From: Polaribacter ponticola
GTDB lineage: Bacteria > Bacteroidota > Bacteroidia > Flavobacteriales > Flavobacteriaceae
Length of the DNA stretch: 64,000 bases
Reading direction: 5' to 3'
Assembly (NCBI RefSeq): GCF_026191475.2
Contig: NZ_JAOSLC020000002.1
Span: 248,001 to 312,000 of the forward strand
Position numbers and translations under genes: made by a program. The notes beneath the pieces are model-generated. The model ran no database searches, was not told the DNA's origin, and saw nothing but the letters and a program-made list of their open reading frames with translations. Numbering within the stretch: the stretch's first letter is position 1; each line of letters starts with the position of its first letter. Below are positions 28,454 to 46,387 of this stretch, in pieces.

Positions 28454-29061
28454 TTAAGATTTCAACTCAATAGTTCTAAAGGTTAAATTAATTCGTGGAG
28501 TATTTACTTTTTTTGTAGGTGGTAATCTGTGTAACCAATTGGTTTGAGTCCCATTTTTCATAACCAACAAACTCCCTCTTTCTAAAACAATATCTATTCT
28601 TTGCTTATTTTCTTTATGCTTAAATGAAAATTTACGTTCTGCTCCTAAAGACAAAGATGCAATTGCTCCATTTTTTTCAACATTTTTTCTCCGTCAGAAT
28701 GATAAGCCATTCCTTCTTCTCCAGAATGATATAAATTTAACAAACACGAATTATAAGTTTCGTTACTCTCTTGCTCAACAATACTTTTTAACTCTAACAG
28801 TTCTTTAGTAAAAATATTTGCAGTTTTTGTTACTTTAGAATAGGTATAAGAATACTCAGATTCTCCATACCAAGCTACTTTTCGTTTTGTAATTATTTTT
28901 TTACCAAAAATAATTGCTTCATCATTTTTCCAATTAATCGTATTTATTAATTGCTGGTAATAAAACTCACATTGGCTTTTGTTTAAAACAATTCCATGAT
29001 AATTTGTAATGCCATCAAAAGGTAAAATATTTTTTATTTTTTCAGAAGAGAATAAATCCAT
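28454..29061 (-). CDS. AlkB-like 2-oxoglutarate/Fe(II) dioxygenase (frameshifted as read)
   Basis: DNA/RNA repair dioxygenase that removes alkyl groups from bases. Repaired length is 202 residues. The iron-binding H-x-D is in AYHSDGE, the distal histidine is in WLHRLPP, and the 2-oxoglutarate-binding arginines are in PRINLTFR. The frame breaks at the T7 run 28671-28677: as read it ends KKMEQLHLCL, with eight it becomes KKNGAIASLSLGAER and continues into the second part. It is the last gene before the surface-protein island. Confidence 0.83.
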
Positions 29062-34850: not shown

Positions 34851-34913
34851 CAATGATATAATTTTACAATAGTTCTAAAAGAAAGCGGTTTATGAATAGC
34901 AATTTGGCTTTGT
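34851..34913 (-). promoter_or_regulatory. LytTR-type direct-repeat promoter A (giant adhesin)
   Basis: Plus-strand repeats CGGTTTAT (34886-34893) and GGCTTTGT (34906-34913) start exactly 20 bp apart. The -7-like box TATCATTG (minus strand, 34858-34851) lies 36 bases from the proximal repeat's CATAAA. The ATG at 34817 follows after a leader of roughly 27 bases. Same architecture as sites B-E. Confidence 0.75.
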
Positions 34914-35022
34914 AAATGGTAAAAAAGACCAATTTTTAGACTTAAATTTTATGTAACCAAAAAATTTAATTTTCTAAAAATCTAGAGAACATTTTTGTAA
35001 ACTTACATTGTTAACAGTATTG

Positions 35023-35592
35023 TTAAAATTTACGTACTGGACGTATAAGGAAATTATTATTCTTAACCTTGTACGTAGTTTTTCCGTTATAAACATCCAT
35101 TATCCAAGCATAGTTCTGGTCTCTATTTGAAGAAGTCCAATAATCATTTATTCTTAAATCATCTCCTTCATTATCTACTGCGGTTGCATTTACTATTTCT
35201 CTATTTTCATAAATCTCATTCATTTCTGTTCTACTTGGTAAATACCAATCTGAATATCCGTTTGCTATATAATCGAAACATAATTTTGCAGCAGTGTTAT
35301 CTGTAGCACAAGCTGCTTTAATTGCAATGGTATTTTCCATACCGTCATAATAATTTTGACCATTTGCATTAGGTATATCAGTTCCTCTGCATCCCCATTC
35401 TGCTCCTTCTTTTCCTAAATCTTCTATTGCACAAACCAATCCTTTGGTATCATCGTCTGGATCTACATAAAAAACAACTCCACCATAAATAAAATCACCT
35501 ACTTTTACTGAAATAAGATCTTCATTTTCACTACAACTAGTTCCTAACATTAATGTTAAAATTACTAGTAAAATATATTTTTGCTTCTTCAT
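35023..35592 (-). CDS. DUF1566-type (Lcl-like) lipoprotein
   Basis: A 189-residue lipoprotein: lipobox LGTSC with the acylated cysteine at about residue 20. The body has the Bacteroidetes DUF1566/Lcl pattern: GGVVFYVD near the start, then SDWYLPSRTEMNEIY and YWTSSN, ending FLIRPVRKF. This domain occurs in surface proteins and is related to C-type-lectin-like folds. It lies between the giant adhesin and the tiny peptide gene; no direct-repeat promoter is seen in front of it, so it may be read from promoter B or have a weak promoter of its own. Confidence 0.8.
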   Translation of the reverse strand: MKKQKYILLVILTLMLGTSCSENEDLISVKVGDFIYGGVVFYVDPDDDTKGLVCAIEDLGKEGAEWGCRGTDIPNANGQNYYDGMENTIAIKAACATDNTAAKLCFDYIANGYSDWYLPSRTEMNEIYENREIVNATAVDNEGDDLRINDYWTSSNRDQNYAWIMDVYNGKTTYKVKNNNFLIRPVRKF

Positions 35593-35679
35593 TTATTTGC
35601 TATTTAAATATTAGCAAGCTTCTACTCGCTGACTTTTGTTTTATCTTTATTTGTGATTTTAATTATTGTTGTTGTCTTT

Positions 35680-35838
35680 TTAAAACCCACTTCCAGGAGC
35701 TTCTGGACTTTGTGCTTGTGCTTTTTGTGGATTCAAAATTAAGTAAGTACCTAATGCAGTTAAAGCAGCATATTTACCATAGTTTCCTATTTTTTTTAAA
35801 GCCTCTTTTCTGTCTATATTTTTATCTTGATTGTTCAT
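35680..35838 (-). CDS. 52-residue signal-peptide-only protein with short mature tail
   Basis: A tiny protein starting at the ATG at 35838; the in-frame upstream extension to 35925 reads through a non-conserved spacer. It has a basic N-region with DRKEALKKIG, reminiscent of a degenerate twin-arginine motif. A hydrophobic core follows (residues 23-35), then NPQKAQA, a good signal-peptidase site. Cleavage after AQA would release only QSPEAPGSGF, ten residues. It sits 87 bases after the surface protein at 35925-38873, on the same strand, probably in its transcript. Function unknown; a secreted peptide is a hypothesis. Confidence 0.6.
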   Translation of the reverse strand: MNNQDKNIDRKEALKKIGNYGKYAALTALGTYLILNPQKAQAQSPEAPGSGF

Positions 35839-35924
35839 GGTGTTTTCTGTTTTTGAGTTCAATAAATAAAGTAATAAGTAGAGTTTTGGTGGTTTTAAAC
35901 AGCGTTTAAACCGCCATGAACTCA

Positions 35925-38873
35925 TTAATTTAAGATTACTTTCTTGTTTACGCTTCCGTTTGCAGTTTGTATTTTTATAAGATATACACCTGTAGACAAG
36001 CTTATTGGTAATTGTACTGTTGTTTTTTGTTGTACTTTAATACTTGTATTAAAAACTTCTTTCCCTAAAATAGTATATACTTTTACACTATTTTGTTCTT
36101 GGTTGGCTAAACCTGTTATGGTTAAAGTTCTTGTATTAGACTTATAAACATAAATGCTATTTAATGCTGCAATACTAGTACCAACACTTAAAATTCTAGA
36201 AGTTGTATGTAAGTAAAAACGACCAAATCCATTTACATCATTACTTACTGTAGTTGTATAAGTTGCTTGTACAGTCTCTAAAAGTGTAAAGGTGTTTTCA
36301 ACTTTATCCTCTATATACACTTTAATAGCAGATGGTAAATTTTCTATAGCTGCTGTAAATGAAAGTGTTGTATTTTCAACTGCATTTACACCTAAAGGTA
36401 TTACCATAGCTTCATAATTATCTATTGGTAAAGATTGTATACCAAAACCAACAGTAGTATCATTAGACAATAGTTTTGTATATACATTAAATGCCTGTGC
36501 TTCGCCAGAGAAAACACCAGCATCATAACCAGGGTCTAAACCAATAGTAGCTGTATTGTAATATTTAACATCAGTACTTTTTTGTAAGCTTCCGTTAGAA
36601 ACTAATAACTTTATTGAAGGCACTGTATTTGATGTTTTTGATGCTGAACCTGCATTACCTTGATGATTTTGCATTGCTTCTGTAAACTGAAGCGAACCTC
36701 CACCATTTTTAGATTCTACAAAAAACGCTTGCGTTGGTGCAATGTGTTTAGATGCTGTTGTATTATTTACAATATCATAAGAATTATTTGAAGCATTCCA
36801 AACATACATAGCAACTCTTAAAGGGTCTAACTCATTTGCATTAACTGTTAAAAAGTTATTAGCTGCATGAGCATTTGTATTTCCATAAATACTAGAGGTA
36901 AAAGGATTACCAACTAAGTTCCATTTATTACCTGTTGCACTACCATCTGTTATTGCCATTGGCACATCAATAGTATTTAAAGCTCCTTCAAAAGAGAATA
37001 TACCAGATGTAGATCTTTGAATTGAATATCCTTTTCCTTTTACAAAATTACCAGACGTATTAACATCATTTGTACCTGCAGCAGTTGTATAATAATTGTA
37101 ACGATTTGTTGCTAAAGTATTAACATAAGGTGCAATTGCGTATTTTGTTCCATTATCAGATACATCATTTTTAAAAGCTGCTATACTTTGCCCCTCAACT
37201 GGAGATGTTAATAAATGCCAATTAGAAGTTACCTCTCTATTATAAGTTACATTACCAGTAGCCGTTCCTTTTAAAATTAAAGATCCGTGGTTTAATAATG
37301 AACTATCTGAAGTAATATTAAAAGTTCCGTTTTGAGTTAAATTACCTTCAATAGTTAGTGTTTTTCCTCCGTCTATTAATAATGTTCCTCCTGCTTGAAT
37401 TTCTAAATCTCTTACAACCATAGAAACTGATCTAATAATTGGATAATTACTACCAACATTAGGTATAACTGCATTTACTGTAGCTGTAGGCACGCCATTT
37501 GTCCAATTTGAAGCTAAATTCCAACTATTAGAAGGAGAACCAACCCAAGTAGTTAATAGTGTAGTGTTTTCGTAAACTCCCATGTCTACAGTAGTATTAA
37601 TGATACGTTGATTACCTGCTAAATCTTTAGTAATACCAGCTAGAATCTTTGAGTTATCACCAGTATTTAATGCAGGGGAACCAGATTGTAATGTATAATC
37701 TGACGCACTTGTAAATAAAGGATTTGCATTACTTATACTCGTTGTAGATGTTATAGAAGAATCTGTAAAATTATTTTCATCTATAGAATTGTAAACGTTT
37801 ACAGAAGCTACTGGTTCTAAATATAGATCTGTTATAGATTTAGTTACAGCATTACCAGTAGTTTTATTATTCCAAAATATATTATTAGCAATTTCTGCAT
37901 TTATTGCACCATTTAATCCACTATTTGCTTTACTGATACCTAAAACTGCGTGCGAAGTTGCATCTAAGCTTTGATCTGTACCATCATCTAAATTATTAAC
38001 TATTGTGTTATTAATAAACTTTAAGTTAACATCACAGGTATTACCAGACATTCTAAACCAACCGACACTTCCGCTTAAACCTTGTGCAGTACTTGCATTT
38101 AAATTACCAGTAACATTATTATCAAATAATGTATTGGTAATAGTAACATCTATATTTGCATTACTTTGTATTTCACTATAGATACATGATCCCCAACGAG
38201 ACATGTTATTTATAAATTGACAATTTTCTATATTTAATTCAGCTCTAGTACCTCCTAGATTATTTAATTGAAAACCTGCATGCAAACCTGCATTACCATT
38301 TCTACTTACATTATCTTTAATAATACAATTTTTTAATGATAGCTCTTTAACAGAAATTTCTTTTAAAATTGCTCCACCTTGCTCTGTAGCACTCAAGTTA
38401 TTATGAGCACCACTTATTGTTAGGCCATCTAATAACACACCACTTCCATTATATGCAATCTCAATAATATGATAGCTATTATCTGCATTACGAGTTGTAT
38501 TTGAATAATTAGATATAAAATCTGTAACATTTACATCATTATTACCTAAATCTCCAGATAAAATAGTTTCATTAACTCCCAAAACTCTTTGTGAAATAGC
38601 AGTTTCTGTACCTGCAAAACCACCATAAATCTCAAGATCTCTTGCGCTAATTGTAAAGTAAGTAGATCTTGAAGAAGCATGCGGAGTATAAGTACCTGTT
38701 GCTAACCAAAGAACATCATTATTACTTGCATTTGCTAAAGCAGTTTGTAAATCTATTGCATTTGCCCATGAAGACCCATTTCCAAACCCTGTTGCAACTG
38801 GTTTTACATACCAGTTTTGTGCAGAAACACTAAGTGTAATAAATAAACAAAGTAGTACTGTAATTTTTTTCAT
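35925..38873 (-). CDS. T9SS-secreted beta-helix surface protein
   Basis: 982 residues. A signal peptide (ITVLLCLFITLSVSAQ) precedes a parallel beta-helix module (about 20-420, starting NWYVKPVATG) closely similar to the second module of the giant adhesin. A region with TWVGSPSNSWNLASNW (about 440 on) follows, as in Bacteroidetes G8/autotransporter-like segments, and then a T9SS sorting domain (VYTILGKEVF to NKKVILN). Predicted to be exported and surface-bound. It is preceded by direct-repeat promoter B and followed by the tiny peptide gene. Confidence 0.87.
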   Translation of the reverse strand: MKKITVLLCLFITLSVSAQNWYVKPVATGFGNGSSWANAIDLQTALANASNNDVLWLATGTYTPHASSRSTYFTISARDLEIYGGFAGTETAISQRVLGVNETILSGDLGNNDVNVTDFISNYSNTTRNADNSYHIIEIAYNGSGVLLDGLTISGAHNNLSATEQGGAILKEISVKELSLKNCIIKDNVSRNGNAGLHAGFQLNNLGGTRAELNIENCQFINNMSRWGSCIYSEIQSNANIDVTITNTLFDNNVTGNLNASTAQGLSGSVGWFRMSGNTCDVNLKFINNTIVNNLDDGTDQSLDATSHAVLGISKANSGLNGAINAEIANNIFWNNKTTGNAVTKSITDLYLEPVASVNVYNSIDENNFTDSSITSTTSISNANPLFTSASDYTLQSGSPALNTGDNSKILAGITKDLAGNQRIINTTVDMGVYENTTLLTTWVGSPSNSWNLASNWTNGVPTATVNAVIPNVGSNYPIIRSVSMVVRDLEIQAGGTLLIDGGKTLTIEGNLTQNGTFNITSDSSLLNHGSLILKGTATGNVTYNREVTSNWHLLTSPVEGQSIAAFKNDVSDNGTKYAIAPYVNTLATNRYNYYTTAAGTNDVNTSGNFVKGKGYSIQRSTSGIFSFEGALNTIDVPMAITDGSATGNKWNLVGNPFTSSIYGNTNAHAANNFLTVNANELDPLRVAMYVWNASNNSYDIVNNTTASKHIAPTQAFFVESKNGGGSLQFTEAMQNHQGNAGSASKTSNTVPSIKLLVSNGSLQKSTDVKYYNTATIGLDPGYDAGVFSGEAQAFNVYTKLLSNDTTVGFGIQSLPIDNYEAMVIPLGVNAVENTTLSFTAAIENLPSAIKVYIEDKVENTFTLLETVQATYTTTVSNDVNGFGRFYLHTTSRILSVGTSIAALNSIYVYKSNTRTLTITGLANQEQNSVKVYTILGKEVFNTSIKVQQKTTVQLPISLSTGVYLIKIQTANGSVNKKVILN

Positions 38874-38892
38874 AATTATTTTTTTTATTGTG

Positions 38893-38955
38893 CAATAATA
38901 CTAAGGAAGAATCCTATAAAAAGAAAGTAATTTATGAGTATCAATTTGAGTTTAT
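38893..38955 (-). promoter_or_regulatory. LytTR-type direct-repeat promoter B
   Basis: Repeats TAATTTAT (38928-38935) and GAGTTTAT (38948-38955) start 20 bp apart. The -7-like TATTATTG (minus strand, 38900-38893) is 36 bases from the proximal CATAAA. It lies upstream of the ATG at 38873. Confidence 0.72.
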
Positions 38956-38992
38956 AAACAACAAATATTTAGCAAATTATAAAAGATAAAAA

Positions 38993-39022
38993 CAAAAAAA
39001 GCTCAGTATTACACTGAGCTTT
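38993..39022 (-). terminator. terminator after the 689-codon gene
   Basis: A stem of AAAGCTCAGT (38998-39007) with ACTGAGCTTT (39013-39022), followed by T on the minus strand. Confidence 0.75.
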
Positions 39023-39157
39023 CAAACAAAACTAATCAACCACTTTTTATAATATGACTATTTTATAAAAAGCAAACTCCTACTCTCTCTTTTTAAACAT
39101 ATATTTTAGTTTTATGCAAAACTTAATTCTTTTAAAAAATTGAATTCATCAACTTTA

Positions 39158-41194
39158 TTACATTAATATTTTTTTTGACAAAACACCTTTATCAGTTATA
39201 ACTCTTATTATATAAATCCCTTTTGATAAATTGTTAACTGCTAAACGAGTTGTGTGCTTACTTACTTGTTTGTTTTTCCAATTCTGTGCTTTTTTACCTA
39301 ATAAATCATAAATTTCTACTGCAGTAATTTCTGTATCATCTAATCTATTTAAAACTAATTCTTTATTGTTTGAATTATAATAATAATGTAATCGATTTTC
39401 TAATAAATGTTCAGATTCAAAAGATAAAACTGAATTATTTTGAATAGTTATAATGTCTGAATAAAAAGAATTACCTCCATATAAAGTAACTTTAACCTTT
39501 AAAATATTAGTGCCTTGTATAAAATGATGAAACCCAATTGTATGTTCTAATTTATTTGGAATATAATTAGTACCAATAACACTGTTATTTAGTTCATATT
39601 CAATTAATCTAACTTTATTATTTTTATCTTTTAGAGATACATTAATTAAAACATTTTGCTCTGAGGTTAAAGTAACACTATTAGACGTAGGTAAATTAAT
39701 TGTAATGTCTAAACTGTCTTTTTTTATATCTGTGCCATATTCAAATGCTCCTAAGTCTATTCTTGTATCACGAATGTTTCCAGAAAAATCATACACATCA
39801 AAATTATGATTCGTACCAGAATTGATTGCAGATGAAGTTTCATTTAATTCAACATTTTTATTTATAAAATCTTTAAAACCTATCTCAGAGACATCTTTAT
39901 TTATAAGATTAAAAGAAACTGTACCTATATCTGCTTTTATTCCTTTAGTTGGATAAGGATCATTTAAAGTATCTTTTTTTCCATAACCAAACACAATATT
40001 ATTTTTTATATCTATTGTCTGAGGACTATATGAGGTAATTCCATTACCCGATCCTCCTTCGATTGTATTATTATAAATTTCTATAATACCGTCTAGGTTC
40101 AAATAATTTCGATTGTTAAGATATAATCCAGTATAACCAGAGCCTAAAACAACATTGTTATATATTTTGGTATTTCCAGTAGCATTTATTTGCATACCAT
40201 TAGATTGTTTGGTTCCATTTTCAATCCAATTTCCATGTATCACTGCTACAGATCCATCACCTACTAATATTCCTTCATCATGATGTCCAATTTCTCTAAA
40301 TGCATAATCTTTTATTACATTATTATAAATTTGTGCATTACGATGTGTATTTTTCACCTGTATTCCATCCCATCCAACTCTTTCAACTATATTATTATAT
40401 ATAAATAAATTACTTATAAAATGCGGAAAGTTTTCACTTGTACATGCCTCTCCTGTAGTATAAGATTTAACAATGGTTCCTTGAGAAAAACCATACCCAA
40501 TATATAAACCTTCTCCAAAAACATCGTGTATGTAATTATCGTGAATAAATACATTTTGCATTTCAAATTCACCTGCATCTGTACTTCCTCCATTAGGATC
40601 ATCTCTACAAATTGGTTGAGATTTTGCCATTATACCTGCAAAACCTAATAAATTTTTTGGAGTTATTGAACTTGCATTCTCTATTGACTGAGCTACAGTG
40701 TCTCCAGCAATTTCTACATGAGCAATTTCAAAATCGGTAGTTTTATTAATCATTTGTAGGTAAGAATTATTATGAGTAGTTACCTTAAAACCGTATTTAT
40801 GGTTAGAATCTCCGTTTCCCAATATTTTAAAATATTTGGAATTTTGAAATTTCCATCCATAAGATGCTGTTATACTTTTTATTTTAACTTTTCCATTGAT
40901 GTTTGTTATAATAACAGGTTTAACAGAGTCTCCAATTATATTTTTAAATCGTAAAAATTTATATTGAACAGAAGCATCTAAACAAATTACATCTCCTCCT
41001 TTAAGCTTTAAAGAATCTCCTCTTTCTATAACTATCTGTGATTCTGCATCATGAATTGTTACATTGCCTTGTTTACCAATATTAGATCCATCAAAAGACC
41101 ATTTATAACTATTAATAGTATAATTACATTTTTGAGCAGACATTTGCCCAATAATAACAATTGTAAAAAGTAAAAAAAGAGTTTTCTTTAACAT
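39158..41194 (-). CDS. T9SS-secreted right-handed beta-helix protein
   Basis: 678 residues from the ATG at 41194 (MLKKTLFLLFTIV); an upstream ATG at 41227 lies in the promoter region and is rejected. A signal peptide ends at QMSAQ. The body is a right-handed parallel beta-helix with repeated N-rich turns (for example IYNNTIEGGSGNGI), typical of polysaccharide lyase-like or adhesin folds. A beta-sandwich and a T9SS sorting domain (IYDLLGKKAQNW to SKKILM) follow. Catalytic residues are not evident. The final codons contain an in-frame run of eight A. Promoter C lies upstream. Confidence 0.85.
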   Translation of the reverse strand: MLKKTLFLLFTIVIIGQMSAQKCNYTINSYKWSFDGSNIGKQGNVTIHDAESQIVIERGDSLKLKGGDVICLDASVQYKFLRFKNIIGDSVKPVIITNINGKVKIKSITASYGWKFQNSKYFKILGNGDSNHKYGFKVTTHNNSYLQMINKTTDFEIAHVEIAGDTVAQSIENASSITPKNLLGFAGIMAKSQPICRDDPNGGSTDAGEFEMQNVFIHDNYIHDVFGEGLYIGYGFSQGTIVKSYTTGEACTSENFPHFISNLFIYNNIVERVGWDGIQVKNTHRNAQIYNNVIKDYAFREIGHHDEGILVGDGSVAVIHGNWIENGTKQSNGMQINATGNTKIYNNVVLGSGYTGLYLNNRNYLNLDGIIEIYNNTIEGGSGNGITSYSPQTIDIKNNIVFGYGKKDTLNDPYPTKGIKADIGTVSFNLINKDVSEIGFKDFINKNVELNETSSAINSGTNHNFDVYDFSGNIRDTRIDLGAFEYGTDIKKDSLDITINLPTSNSVTLTSEQNVLINVSLKDKNNKVRLIEYELNNSVIGTNYIPNKLEHTIGFHHFIQGTNILKVKVTLYGGNSFYSDIITIQNNSVLSFESEHLLENRLHYYYNSNNKELVLNRLDDTEITAVEIYDLLGKKAQNWKNKQVSKHTTRLAVNNLSKGIYIIRVITDKGVLSKKILM

Positions 41195-41215
41195 AATTTT
41201 GTTTAAAGTTTGATA

Positions 41216-41278
41216 CAAAAAAAACATATTATATAGATTTTAGAACAAAGCGTTTTATGAATATTAATTTGACTTTGT
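41216..41278 (-). promoter_or_regulatory. LytTR-type direct-repeat promoter C
   Basis: Repeats CGTTTTAT (41251-41258) and GACTTTGT (41271-41278) start 20 bp apart. At the same 36-base distance stands TTTTTTTG (minus strand, 41223-41216), the least typical of the five -7-like boxes. It lies upstream of the ATG at 41194. Confidence 0.7.
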
Positions 41279-41292
41279 GAATGTTCTAAAAC

Positions 41293-42347
41293 TTATCTTA
41301 CATTAACAGTATTACCACAACCAGAGTTAGCAGTATATACTTTTGTTTTTGATGATCTATAAGAATAAGTACTTCCTTTAATAGTTTCAATCATTATATA
41401 AGCATCTTGATCACAGTTCCAAGATGCAGTTCCGCCCGCTCTTATTTCTGTACCTTTATTAGCACTACCACTAGTACCTACATAAATTGTCTTACTACCT
41501 TTATTTCGAAGTGTTACAGAATTTTGAGCTTTTGCTGCTTGGTAATTTGCTTCATTTCTTTTAATTCTTCTTTGTAAATCTTGGTGTTCTGGTGTTGCTC
41601 TTACAGAATCATTATATCTTTTTATATCTTCTATTACTTTCTTTTTAGCATTTATAAGGTTTTTATCACTCATTTTTTGCTTATCAGTTCTACCATCTTG
41701 CTTAACTTTCATAGCAACTAAATAATCTGTAATCATTTTATTTAAATTCTTACCTTCTAAATCTTTATGCTCTGGTCCAAAATTACGAGATGTAGACTTA
41801 CCTAACCCTCCCTTTTTTAGAGCTTTCATTTTCTGAAAAAAAGACATTTTTTTCTTTTTCTTATTCTTTTTTGGAGTTATTTTAGTTGTCTCCTCTTTTA
41901 ATACTCCTTCTTTTATTTTAATATATACGTCATCAATACTACTAAAAGATGTTCCGTCTTTAGAAATACCATTTAGCGTAAAAATATAATCTCCAATTGC
42001 TACAATTCCATCTTTTTGATATTTATGTCTAATAACACTCTCATAAGGATAGCCATTGTATTCATAATATCCACTTGCAACATTATATGCTTCAGATTTT
42101 TTTCCTTTTTTTCACCTTCTTGAATAATTGCAGATATACTATACCCTTCACCTGTAGATAAATGTTTTAATTCAAATTTTAAAATAAATCGTTTGTCATT
42201 AATTTGATAAAAACCATCATTATCTTTATCTGTTACGCTTAAATATTCTTGGTATTTATCATTTTCAGAAATAGTAGTAAATAAGCTGTTTTGGGCATTT
42301 ACAAAAGTTGCAAATAAAAATGCAATTGCAATAAATAAATTTTTCAT
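41293..42347 (-). CDS. secreted hypothetical protein (frameshifted as read)
   Basis: A 351-residue protein when repaired. Start at ATG 42347 (MKNLFIAIAFLFATFVNAQ, a clear signal peptide). The first part is beta-rich, the middle very basic (KKNKKKK near codons at 41860), and the C-terminal domain contains GTEIRAGGTASWNCDQDAYI, with two cysteines near the end. The family is not recognised and there is no T9SS sorting domain. The frame breaks at one of two adjacent T7 runs (42097-42103 or 42106-42112); eight T restores KKSEAYNVASGYYEY. It is under direct-repeat promoter D, so it belongs to the same regulon as the surface proteins. Confidence 0.65.
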
Positions 42348-42372
42348 TAAGTTTTGTTTAATTATTAGATAA

Positions 42373-42435
42373 CAATAATACGCTGTCATAAATAATAAAC
42401 TAGAATCTACTTTATGAAATACAAATTGACTTTGT
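42373..42435 (-). promoter_or_regulatory. LytTR-type direct-repeat promoter D
   Basis: Repeats TACTTTAT (42408-42415) and GACTTTGT (42428-42435) start 20 bp apart. The -7-like TATTATTG (minus strand, 42380-42373) is 36 bases from the proximal CATAAA. It lies upstream of the ATG at 42347. Confidence 0.75.
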
Positions 42436-42470
42436 GGATGGTAAATTCAAAAAAATAAGCAAGAAGATAT

Positions 42471-45389
42471 TTAAAATCTCTTTTTAAAAGGCATTGTTAA
42501 AATAACTTTAGTTCCTTTAGCAATTTCATTTTCAATTAAATCTTCAATTACATAACCAATATTTTCAGAATACTGTTCTTTGAAAATTTCTAAACGTTTT
42601 TTTATAGCTCTTAGTGCAAAAGGTTCGTGATGGCTTCCTTGGCGTTGTCTAATTTCTTCTGCTTTCTTCCTTCCTACACCATTATCTGTAATGGTACATC
42701 TTAAAATACTTTCTGTAAAGTCGAAATTAATATGAAGCTCTTTATTACCAGATTTATGCATTAAACCATGCACTAAGGCATTCTCTATAAAAGGCTGTAT
42801 AATTAAAGACGGAACTTCTAAATATTCATTTTTATCATAATTAATAGAATAGTTAAATAAATCTCCAAAACGAAGTTTCTCTAATTGCAGATATAATTTT
42901 AAAAAATCTAACTCTTTTTCAATAGAAATAAAATCTTGACTAGAATAGTTTAAAGTATTTCTAACCAAATTTGCAAACATTACAATATAATCATAAGATG
43001 CTTCTGTATCTTCTTTTAAAATTAAATCTTGAATAGAATTTAAAGCATTAAAAATAAAATGTGGATTCATTTGAGAACGAAGAGCTGTTAAATTAATTGA
43101 CATCAACTCTTTCTCTAAAGAAATTTTTTCTAATTCTGCCAACTTCTCTTTTTCTTCTATCTTTATTTTTCGATTAAAATATATTATAGTACTTCCAAAG
43201 AGTAAGACAAAACCTCCTAAAACAAACCACCAAGCTTTCCAAAACGGTTTATTTATTTTAAATTTAATAGATTTAATTTTGTCTTTAGTAACTTCTTTTT
43301 CAGAAACAGGCTGCACTTGAAATATATAATTACCAGCAGGTAAACTATTATATTTTACAGAATTAACATGTATATCTGTTGTTAGCCATGTATCATTAAA
43401 CCCTATTAAACGATACTTGTATCTGTTTTTTTCATTATATAAATAACCGTTTACATTAAAACCTATTTTAATAGCATTCTGATTATAACTTAAATCATAA
43501 TTAGAAGTTATTAAAGTATCCTTCTCATTAATTTCTACTTCTGTAAAATAAATATTTGGATTTGGGCTTTTAAAAGGTTCTTTTTTGTTGATAGAAAACA
43601 AACCCTCATTAGAAGAAAAATAAACCTTATTTTTAAGTATTTCAATACCAGAAACGTCATAAGAAACTATACCATCTCTTTTTGTTAATGTTTGTAGTTC
43701 TTTTGTGTTAACATCTAATAATTGAATACTATTTTCTAGAGCAATCCATAATTTATTTTTATCTGCTTTAATAACACCAATATTATTAGATGTTAAACCA
43801 TTTTTAGTTGAATAATGCTGAATTACACGTTCGTTTTTTATACCATAAATACCATCTTTAAAAGTAGATACCCAAACAATACCATTACTTGTTTCAGTAA
43901 TAGATTTAACATAAATTGGTTTGCTCTTATAAATAATAGGTTTCGCTTTCCAAAGACTATCATATTGTATTAAATTATCTATATAAGCAATAAAAACAGC
44001 TTTTTTTGGTTTATTGTAGTGCGATGCATAAGTTCTTTTTCCTCTTTGAATAGAATCAAATATGTTCTCTTCAAATTGTTCATCTTGTAATATTCTTACA
44101 CTATTATTAGTGGTAAAAAGCAACTTATTATCATCTATTGAAGTTAAACTTTTTGCTGTAGTAAAATATTTAAAAGTTGAAACTTTTAACGTTTTATTAT
44201 TTATTGTATAACTATAAAAATCTTTACTTATATAAGTAGTATTATTGTTAACTTGGTATTTTAAAGCAGAAACACGATCGCTCGTTGGTAATTTTATAAT
44301 ATTCAACTTATTTTTAGATACATCATAAAAACCTACATTCCCTTTCGTGTTTCCAAAAACTAATGTGTTATTATTAATACGATCTAAACTAGATATATTC
44401 TTATTTTCTTCAGAAATATTAACGTTTTCTATATTTATATTTGGTACAATATAAATACCGTTATTTAATGTTGTAAACCAATAATTATCTTCGGTATCTT
44501 TAACTATTTTTGTTATATTTTTATTTTTTAAAAAACGTTTTTGTAATTTAAAAGATTCGTTAATAAGTTCATAAACCCAAATACCAGTTGCTGTTGCAAA
44601 CCAAACTTCATTGCCTGTTACAAATTGATCATAAATACGTTCGTTTTTTAATTCTTTTATAATATCTAGTTTACTAATTTTATTTTCTGATAATTTAAAA
44701 TACTGATTTATACCAGATCTTTTTTGTCTAAAAAATAAATTTGACCCTATTTTAAAGATGATTAGTTTATAAATATTTAGTCTTTTTCCTTTTTTATCTC
44801 TAGTAGGCAGGTTTACATTTGTTGATACTTTAAATTCGTTTTGAGAATTAATTTTAAAAATAAAATTTGAATTACCAATATACACTTCATCTTCCAACTT
44901 AAAAGGCTTACCAAATGTTTGATTTGAATTAGTATAATCAAATTCTACAATCTTTGTTTTTAAATTTATCTTATAAATTTTATACTGTCCTATAATCCAT
45001 AAATAATTACCTTTTACAATAAAATCTGCTAATTGACCTTTTAACTCTTTACTAAAATCGATAAACAATTCTAATTTATTACCTTGTAAGTAAAAAAACT
45101 GACCAGAAACATTATTACACCAAATACGTCCTAAATTATCTTCTTGTAAATTAAAAATAGATGAACTACGTTGTAATTCGTTAGTATATTTTTTATAAGC
45201 TTTACCATCATATCTAAAAAGGCCTTTGTCTGCTGCCAACCAAACAAACCCCTTACTATCTTCTATAAGATCATAAAACTCTTTATCTGGTAAACCATTT
45301 TTTTCAGAAAAATGTACAAAAACTGGCTCTTGTGCATTAATTAAAAATGTTACACATAATAATATTAATAAACATATTTTTTTAATCAA
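42471..45389 (-). CDS. LytS-type sensor histidine kinase with periplasmic propeller
   Basis: 972 residues. A signal peptide/anchor (CLLILLCVTFLINAQ), then a large periplasmic two-component-regulator-propeller region (about 20-620), a Y_Y_Y domain (RYKYRLIGFNDTW), one membrane helix (WWFVLGGFVLLFGSTIIYF), a short coiled coil and a His_kinase domain. The phosphorylated histidine is about H777 in QMNPHFIFNALNS, and the ATP site includes DNGVGR. Its partner is the LytTR regulator encoded 15 bases upstream on the same strand. The ligand is unknown; propellers of this type often sense glycans in Bacteroidetes. Confidence 0.92.
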   Translation of the reverse strand: MIKKICLLILLCVTFLINAQEPVFVHFSEKNGLPDKEFYDLIEDSKGFVWLAADKGLFRYDGKAYKKYTNELQRSSSIFNLQEDNLGRIWCNNVSGQFFYLQGNKLELFIDFSKELKGQLADFIVKGNYLWIIGQYKIYKINLKTKIVEFDYTNSNQTFGKPFKLEDEVYIGNSNFIFKINSQNEFKVSTNVNLPTRDKKGKRLNIYKLIIFKIGSNLFFRQKRSGINQYFKLSENKISKLDIIKELKNERIYDQFVTGNEVWFATATGIWVYELINESFKLQKRFLKNKNITKIVKDTEDNYWFTTLNNGIYIVPNINIENVNISEENKNISSLDRINNNTLVFGNTKGNVGFYDVSKNKLNIIKLPTSDRVSALKYQVNNNTTYISKDFYSYTINNKTLKVSTFKYFTTAKSLTSIDDNKLLFTTNNSVRILQDEQFEENIFDSIQRGKRTYASHYNKPKKAVFIAYIDNLIQYDSLWKAKPIIYKSKPIYVKSITETSNGIVWVSTFKDGIYGIKNERVIQHYSTKNGLTSNNIGVIKADKNKLWIALENSIQLLDVNTKELQTLTKRDGIVSYDVSGIEILKNKVYFSSNEGLFSINKKEPFKSPNPNIYFTEVEINEKDTLITSNYDLSYNQNAIKIGFNVNGYLYNEKNRYKYRLIGFNDTWLTTDIHVNSVKYNSLPAGNYIFQVQPVSEKEVTKDKIKSIKFKINKPFWKAWWFVLGGFVLLFGSTIIYFNRKIKIEEKEKLAELEKISLEKELMSINLTALRSQMNPHFIFNALNSIQDLILKEDTEASYDYIVMFANLVRNTLNYSSQDFISIEKELDFLKLYLQLEKLRFGDLFNYSINYDKNEYLEVPSLIIQPFIENALVHGLMHKSGNKELHINFDFTESILRCTITDNGVGRKKAEEIRQRQGSHHEPFALRAIKKRLEIFKEQYSENIGYVIEDLIENEIAKGTKVILTMPFKKRF

Positions 45390-45404
45390 GAAATAACTAT
45401 AATT

Positions 45405-46156
45405 TTATAGGTTAATAATTTTTTCAAAATCTTCTATTCGAGCTCTTGAAATTTTAGATTTCACTTTGTTTTCTTTTGCTAATGTAATAGTTAATTCTGT
45501 TTTATTAAAAAAAGTTATGTAATCTAAATTAATAATCCATGCTCTATGAGATCTAAAAAAAGAAATATTTTTAGGCAGAACATCTTCAAAATATTTTAAG
45601 TTTTTACTTGTAGTAATAATTTTATTTTCTTTTAAATAAATTTTACTGTAAGCCCCATCAGCTTCCAACGCAATAATATTATCAATATCAACAATTCTCC
45701 TATTTCCTAATTCCGGAATTATAATTTTTTTATAATCTTTGTCTTTAATAGATTTTAATAAGGTTTGATAATCAATAAGAGCTGCTTGATTTTTAATTTG
45801 ATTTTCTAACTTACTTAATGTTAAAGCTAATTTCTTCCTATCAATAGGTTTTACCAAATAATCAATTGCATTTAATTCAAATGCTTTTATAGCATAGTGA
45901 TCATAAGCAGTAACGAATATAATTTCAAAATCTATCTTTTCAAAGAAATTAACAATCTCATAGCCTGCATAATTTGGCATTTGTACATCTAAAAAAACAA
46001 CATTGGGTTTCATTTTTTTATTTGCAAAACACCCTCTTCTAAATTATTACAAGTTGCAACAATTTCAATATTAGTAGAAGTTCTTTTTAATAAATTAGTA
46101 AGAACATTTCTAGCGCTTTGCTCATCATCAATAAGTATTGCTTTTATTTTAAACAT
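45405..46156 (-). CDS. LytTR-family response regulator (frameshifted as read)
   Basis: A DNA-binding response regulator, 250 residues when repaired. The receiver domain begins AILIDDEQSAR (acidic pocket), the phospho-accepting aspartate is in VVFLDVQMP, and the LytTR domain covers the last 100 residues (IIALEADGAYSKIYL, FFRSHRAWIINLDYI). The frame breaks at the T7 run 46013-46019; eight T joins LQIKK to MKPNVV. The gene has its own copy of the direct-repeat promoter (site E), which points to autoregulation. It is followed by its kinase gene. Confidence 0.88.
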
Positions 46157-46161
46157 AGTTA

Positions 46162-46224
46162 CAAATATAACAATCAATTACTACTAAAAACCGTAAGACT
46201 TTATGAATAGCAAAATGACTTTGT
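46162..46224 (-). promoter_or_regulatory. LytTR-type direct-repeat promoter E (regulator gene)
   Basis: Repeats GACTTTAT (46197-46204) and GACTTTGT (46217-46224) start 20 bp apart and are the best matching pair. TATATTTG (minus strand, 46169-46162) is a perfect -7 box at the same 36-base distance. The ATG at 46156 starts six bases after the box, suggesting a leaderless message. Confidence 0.78.
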
Positions 46225-46267
46225 AAAATGAAGATATACTTAAAATTTAAGCCCATTTTGTATTAAA

Positions 46268-46300
46268 ATAAAAAAGCCTTACATAAAATGCAAGGCTTTT
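46268..46300 (-). terminator. terminator of tRNA-Ser
   Basis: A 9-bp stem (AAAAGCCTT at 46272-46280 with AAGGCTTTT at 46292-46300), T-rich on the minus strand, directly after the tRNA. Confidence 0.8.
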
Positions 46301-46302
46301 GG

Positions 46303-46387
46303 CGGAGAAAGAGGGATTCGAACCCCCGGACCTGTTACAGTCAACAGTTTTCAAGACTGCCGCATTCGACCGCTCTGCCATTTCTCC
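46303..46387 (-). tRNA. tRNA-Ser (anticodon TGA)
   Basis: Acceptor GGAGAAA with TTTCTCC, anticodon stem GCAGT/ACTGT around CTTGAAA, long variable arm. A -7 box TATATTTG lies upstream at 46423-46430. No encoded CCA. Confidence 0.95.

Follow-up and report, generated by a model that had tools for sequence, protein, structure and literature searches.

To our knowledge, little is known about how Bacteroidota choose which surface proteins to make. A gene cluster of Polaribacter ponticola raises the question in compact form, since a LytTR response regulator and a LytS-type kinase are encoded there beside large secreted and surface proteins, and similar paired repeats precede five of the genes. Are these repeats operators through which the regulator would control its neighbors and itself? 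LytTR sites are described as pairs of repeats, direct or inverse, each 9-11 nt long and separated by 11-13 nt, that have no common consensus (PMC4847170). The window is the whole stretch of 64,000 nucleotides that was analysed (contig NZ_JAOSLC020000002.1, positions 248,001 to 312,000), and all positions below are counted from its first letter.

Genes of the cluster

The six genes considered here are as follows.

45405..46156, minus strand: gene of the LytTR response regulator, its frame interrupted at an A-run near 46016
42471..45389, minus strand: sensor with Reg_prop propeller, Y_Y_Y and LytS-type His_kinase, 972 aa, TTG start
41293..42347, minus strand: conserved secreted protein gene, frame broken at an A-run near 42100
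39158..41194, minus strand: right-handed beta-helix surface protein, T9SS tail, 678 aa
35925..38873, minus strand: surface protein, T9SS tail, 982 aa
29208..34817, minus strand: LamG and InlB-repeat surface protein, T9SS tail, 1869 aa

The earlier note paired a LytTR protein with a propeller-containing LytS-type kinase, and the Reg_prop, Y_Y_Y, His_kinase and LytTR domains were all found. The regulator has a LytTR DNA-binding domain (PF04397, E 1.3e-14) and, in its C-terminal ORF, part of a receiver domain (PF00072), whose N-terminal DDE region is intact in aligned relatives and lies in another frame in the window. The kinase has His_kinase PF06580 (E 8.9e-24) behind a sensor part made of Reg_prop and Y_Y_Y. 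Hybrid two-component systems of Bacteroidota polysaccharide loci likewise carry a periplasmic Reg_prop propeller and Y_Y_Y and regulate neighboring genes, as the apparent targets here are neighbors too; unlike those systems, kinase and regulator are here separate ORFs with a LytTR instead of an AraC DNA-binding domain, so the pair is not an AraC-fused hybrid system. The genome has 34 LytTR domains in all.

The T9SS sorting domain PF18962 ends all three large site-bearing proteins of the window and is lacking in the secreted protein, whose structural model (mean pLDDT 76.4, pTM 0.53) gave no confident PDB match (best E 0.012). The units beginning at 46156 and 42347 are present as had been claimed, but both of their ORFs are interrupted by frame breaks. 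In aligned relatives the regulator is intact (247-252 aa), and the secreted gene together with the ORF at 41293-41847 forms a single gene (326-361 aa). By eye, an ORF that we named AlkB-like (28645-29061) seems shortened in the same way as the frames broken at A-runs, which suggests assembly indels or slippage. Directly upstream of the cluster, at 46300-46387, is a tRNA-Ser (TGA) gene; together with the patchy distribution described below, it may mark the place where the cluster was inserted.

Layout of the five sites

One ungapped element stands before the five minus-strand genes that start at 46156, 42347, 41194, 38873 and 34817. It consists of two TTYRYAAA-type half-sites whose starts are 20 bp apart (9 bp plus 11 bp), followed at a constant distance by a TAnnTTTG-like box; the conserved unit is the TTYRYAAA core with part of the 11-bp middle.

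46199..46227, minus strand: predicted operator of the regulator gene, half-sites TTTACAAAG (46227-46219) and TTCATAAAG (46207-46199), starts 20 bp apart; recurs before orthologs
46162..46169, minus strand: -7 box TATATTTG of the regulator gene, 5 nt before ATG; predicted leaderless or with a 1-nt leader
42410..42438, minus strand: predicted operator of the conserved secreted protein gene, box 42380-42373
41253..41281, minus strand: predicted operator of the beta-helix surface protein gene, box 41223-41216
38930..38958, minus strand: predicted operator of the 982-aa surface protein gene, box 38900-38893
34888..34916, minus strand: predicted operator of the LamG/InlB-repeat surface protein gene, box 34858-34851

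The five sites are where the earlier note had placed them, and the 20-bp distance between half-site starts holds at every one. With repeats of 9 nt, 11 nt between them and a position upstream of the promoter, all five fall within the geometry described for LytTR operators. Two details needed correction. The box was said to lie 36 bases from the proximal repeat; its distance is indeed constant in all five, but is 35 bases when counted from the first base of the proximal RYAAA core, the 36 having been counted from another base. The repeat pair, given as two 8-bp repeats, is present five times, but both exact 8-mers occur only at the regulator site and the repeat is both shorter than 8 bp and looser. 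The remaining four sites diverge, their half-site pairs reading, on the plus strand, GACTTTGT/TACTTTAT, GACTTTGT/CGTTTTAT, GAGTTTAT/TAATTTAT and GGCTTTGT/CGGTTTAT. The boxes, in the order of the genes above, are TATATTTG, TATTATTG, TTTTTTTG, TATTATTG and TATCATTG, and stand 5, 25, 21, 19 and 33 nt before the respective ATG.

Columns 34-37 of alignment A4 hold a TTTG-like stretch (T 77, 88 and 77%, G 44%) after the proximal half-site and 22 nt before the -7 box. By analogy with AgrA promoters, as far as these are covered in PMC4227749, it possibly reflects an over-long -33/-7 spacing.

Scans of the window and its genome

The pair of 8-mers is a weak pattern when used alone. With up to three mismatches it gave 11 matches in the window vs 5.3 expected (11 was reached in 1 of 100 shuffles), and with up to two mismatches 18 matches in the genome vs 21 for the reversed pattern. 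Searching by 8-mer pairs only was dropped as uninformative in both, and the claim therefore rests on the whole arrangement of 67-73 bp.

Position matrices separate the five sites from the rest of the genome. A model trained on the sites themselves scores them at 50.4-57.1 bits, the next match in 3.58 Mb reaching 14.0 bits; genome matches at or below that score were treated as chance. Another matrix was built from 13 regulator promoters, all of other genomes and excised according to their distance from the ATG. When it is run over both strands of the window, the five sites take ranks 1-4 and 6 (12.6-33.5 bits), and one non-site of 12.9 bits falls between them. With a 34-bp matrix made from 24 sites they rank 1-5 (25.2-39.2 bits, against 5.3 for the next match); its sites came from records with no sampled 60-mer in common with the training loci, but had been chosen with a matrix that contained the window sites. 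Finally, a model of 43 sites, the five included, gives 40.6-48.4 bits for the five and 16.8 for the next match in the genome, so that no further match comes near them and the scatter of equally good matches that would have told against the earlier note is absent.

Half-site repeats were also sought at the other LytTR genes of this genome, where no excess appeared at spacings of 20-22 (28 scorable of 30 loci fetched, for the 34 domains); the upstream stretches of those genes look mostly coding-like by eye.

Regulator orthologs

At E<=1e-60, regulator orthologs were found in 10 of 162 genomes of the window's genus and in three more genomes of a 397-genome family sample that included its own genome. 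Scanning named genomes yielded 41 loci, including 33 with 43-100% identity to the regulator, in Tenacibaculum, Polaribacter-labelled genomes, Lutibacter, Aureibaculum, Lacinutrix, Aquimarina, Dokdonia, Reichenbachiella, Crocinitomicaceae and MAGs. Reichenbachiella belongs to the order Cytophagales. The element was found again beside the regulator in further members of the window's own order and in one bacterium outside it. Nine loci (L126, L133-L136, L143, L146, L148 and L156) are contigs of genomes already used, L126 for instance being contig C21 of G121, and were left out of the counts of further orthologs, of sites in independent loci and of targets. A 60-mer check on L127-L166 showed sharing in eight of the nine dropped loci and in none of those kept.

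In the first 14 orthologs the upstream half-site starts 66-68 nt before the ATG, and the box lies 34-35 nt after the downstream one and 4-5 nt before the ATG. The spacing of 20 in all 14 was imposed by the search pattern, so it was excluded as a test and replaced by 24 further orthologs. Among these, 16 have half-sites at spacing 20 in the expected place, against a mean of 0.06 and a maximum of 3 in 500 mononucleotide shuffles; other spacings from 10 to 30 are reached by at most three. The conservation of spacing beside orthologous lytTR genes that the earlier note looked for is thus upheld across genera. The pattern is missing from the expected place in eight of the 24 (L142 and L149-L155, 49-60% identity); L151-L153 look 21-spaced by eye, and in L142, L154 and L155 a site lies at another place in the locus. 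At seven distant LytTR relatives (L159-L165, 35-38% identity) there was neither the pattern nor a site above 20 bits.

Co-occurrence of site and regulator

A model trained on the window alone matched 39 of 166 genus genomes at E<=0.01 and seven at E<=1e-5, all seven with the regulator. In the genus comparison, each of the 10 genomes with the regulator has sites at E<=1e-5, and none of the 152 that lack it does (Fisher p 4e-16, with a cut picked afterwards and species that are not independent). Regulator and sites were each scanned in 162 genomes, apparently the same draw, as the listed misses agree. Eight of the ten positive genomes had fed the model; G142 and G053 had not. When the cut is relaxed to E<=1e-3, weak matches of 21-27 bits appear in 10 regulator-negative genomes of the genus.

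At the same cut, 19 of the 397 genomes of the family sample have a match. G000, G186 and G244 have the regulator, 15 matches are weak (20.5-26.6 bits), and G441 has two strong sites, one of them before a truncated regulator that matches residues 1-53. G191, with two regulator orthologs at 55-56% identity, has no site at E<=1e-3. Among relatives, strong sites sit in clusters that include the regulator; the exceptions seen are distal sites in G053 and T. soleae and the case of G441.

The R1 matches in G160, G085 and G153 (26.5, 14.9 and 21.4 bits) were dropped, as the two-block matrix finds nothing above 14 there. The best regulator match of G160 has 33% identity; G085 and G153 are not among the ten regulator matches listed for the 162 genus genomes.

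Predicted target genes

The two-block matrix found 44 sites above 20 bits in the 25 loci of the first set, of which 18 had served for training. In 32 independent loci (562 kb) that have no sampled 60-mer in common with the training loci it found 46, and the reversed control gave 0 in either set. Nineteen of the 32 independent loci hold one or more such sites. A tally over 49 loci comprises 92 sites in about 31 genomes, which precede the following.

29 sites: regulators (one of them, at L157, only 171 aa)
7 sites: the conserved secreted family, without a tail
13 sites: T9SS type A proteins, by a simple signature
2 sites: T9SS type B proteins, by a simple signature
10 sites: lipoproteins, by a simple rule
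3 sites: TPR kinases of Aquimarina
17 sites: other genes
11 sites: no ORF within 160 nt

The T9SS tail signature undercounts, missing two of the window proteins, and two frame-broken genes fall into other bins (the window regulator under 'other', the L166 secreted gene under 'no ORF'). Among the 11 sites with no ORF in that range, five of Aquimarina type and two in G121 have a surface gene a few hundred nt downstream, and the rest stand before short, broken or masked stretches. Domains met among the targets are cadherin, LRR, NHL, PARCEL, LamG, InlB repeats and beta-helix.

A T9SS tail is therefore not a mark of every target. The earlier note had described a regulon over T9SS surface genes; its targets are indeed secreted and surface proteins, and the three large ones of the window are all tailed, but elsewhere they are often lipoproteins, so that the regulon is not T9SS-specific.

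Several loci merit separate description. G186 has two lipoproteins with a near-identical cadherin N-terminus and different C-terminal repeats. At L115:8581-12286, two lipoproteins have a common cadherin N-terminus but finish in either NHL or LRR repeats, which looks like an exchange of recognition ends behind one promoter type. The Aquimarina loci L138, L139 and L141 have a second kinase, of TPR plus LytS type, with an operator (Pfam domains were scanned in L138 only). Intact operators also stand before seemingly broken surface-protein genes, at L092:3299 and L093:6711. The distal site of G053 (23.1 bits and E 3.3e-4 in the genus scan, 32.6 bits in the target tally) precedes a protein of 1891 aa that has a type B tail by signature and is LamG-like by eye. 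That of T. soleae (E 1.6e-6; L177:858-1153) precedes a gene for a 67-aa peptide with a GG leader, MLKKIANLGKTLEKTEQKVINGG..., which presumably is akin to the double-glycine peptide precursors of Bacteroidota. Gram-positive LytTR regulators often control such peptides.

Alternative explanations

The element could serve a different regulator or an alternative sigma factor whose gene lies elsewhere, the LytTR gene being just one of its targets. The link from LytTR to the element is predicted from sequence, the regulator gene itself bears the element, and weak matches occur in some regulator-negative genomes, all of which suits such a reading. Yet we consider it improbable, as strong sites co-occur tightly with this regulator in the genus, the direct repeats have the geometry described for LytTR sites (PMC4847170), and the boxes resemble the TAnnTTTG type given for housekeeping promoters (PMC9723704). 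Recent duplication of one region would make the five promoters similar by descent, not through selection of a binding site, and some surface proteins of the clusters are in fact partly alike. Against this, 43 sites show conservation in the operator and box columns but not in most of the 29 nt that separate the two (a T-rich run beside the proximal half-site is the exception), and in other genera these columns persist in front of unrelated families of targets; duplication is accordingly a very remote prospect.

It is also conceivable, if unlikely, that in this genome the regulator is a true pseudogene and its sites are relics. Both the regulator ORF and that of the secreted protein break at A-runs, and G441 has a truncated regulator beside a kept site. 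On the other side, the kinase and the three large surface genes are open, the five operators are intact, and both breaks lie within A-runs, where errors of long-read assembly typically occur.

Proposed mechanism

The computational checks thus favor the earlier reading of the repeats. In all likelihood, judging from sequence, the five elements are operators of the cluster's own LytTR regulator and define an autoregulated, mostly local surface-protein regulon. With the same two-part switch on five genes, recurring beside the same regulator, the cluster looks like a sensor system for a changeable set of surface proteins. The LytS-type kinase would sense an external ligand with its periplasmic propeller and phosphorylate the regulator, two molecules of which would sit next to each other on the DNA, at about -70 to -42, and recruit the housekeeping RNA polymerase. 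The position of the element points to activation rather than repression; the proximal repeats of AgrA lie at about -60 (PMC4227749). As the regulator promoter is among the predicted targets, positive feedback would result, from a leaderless mRNA. In Flavobacterium psychrophilum the -7 box is placed at -12 to -5, and the leaderless class is given as 5.5% of mRNAs (PMC9723704); a box so placed would start transcription 0-1 nt before the regulator ATG, hence the prediction. The output would be mostly local, species-variable proteins, secreted, T9SS-sorted or anchored at the surface as lipoproteins.

Relation to known systems and significance

Like the operators of AgrA (Staphylococcus aureus) and YpdB (Escherichia coli), the sites lie upstream of the promoter and consist of two repeats, each about 9-11 nt long, with a gap of 11-13 nt, and YpdB is paired with a LytS-type kinase as is the regulator here (PMC4227749, PMC4847170). 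Unlike in those systems, the half-sites have another sequence, the box is the -7 box of Bacteroidota, the apparent targets are secreted and surface proteins, and the regulator gene comes first and is predicted to be leaderless. PorXY-SigP is reported to control T9SS genes in Porphyromonas gingivalis (PMC4800418), though PorX is said in PMC5005315 not to regulate those genes directly. The present pair is similar in tying two-component control to T9SS and differs in its apparent targets, which are secreted and surface proteins, whereas PorXY-SigP concerns the genes for the secretion machinery.

LytTR operators are a known class, but we have met no description of a regulon of this type. The earlier note knew of none for the site, and among the matches listed from open full-text literature there was likewise none; subscription journals fall mostly outside that scope.

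Tentatively, the cluster may be viewed as a patchily distributed 'display cassette' of Bacteroidota, in which the propeller LytS/LytTR pair and one operator are constant and unrelated surface modules are swapped between species. The modules would, on the same tentative view, include beta-helix, LamG/InlB, cadherin plus LRR, cadherin plus NHL and PARCEL repeats, and sometimes a GG-leader peptide or a second kinase. With modules swapped behind one operator, the sensor would stay while the displayed proteins turn over. The fixed spacing also suggests a promoter part for Flavobacteriia. By tying an operator of fixed geometry to one of 34 LytTR domains, the analysis gives an anonymous two-component pair a testable regulon, whose targets the operator predicts in about 31 genomes from sequence alone.
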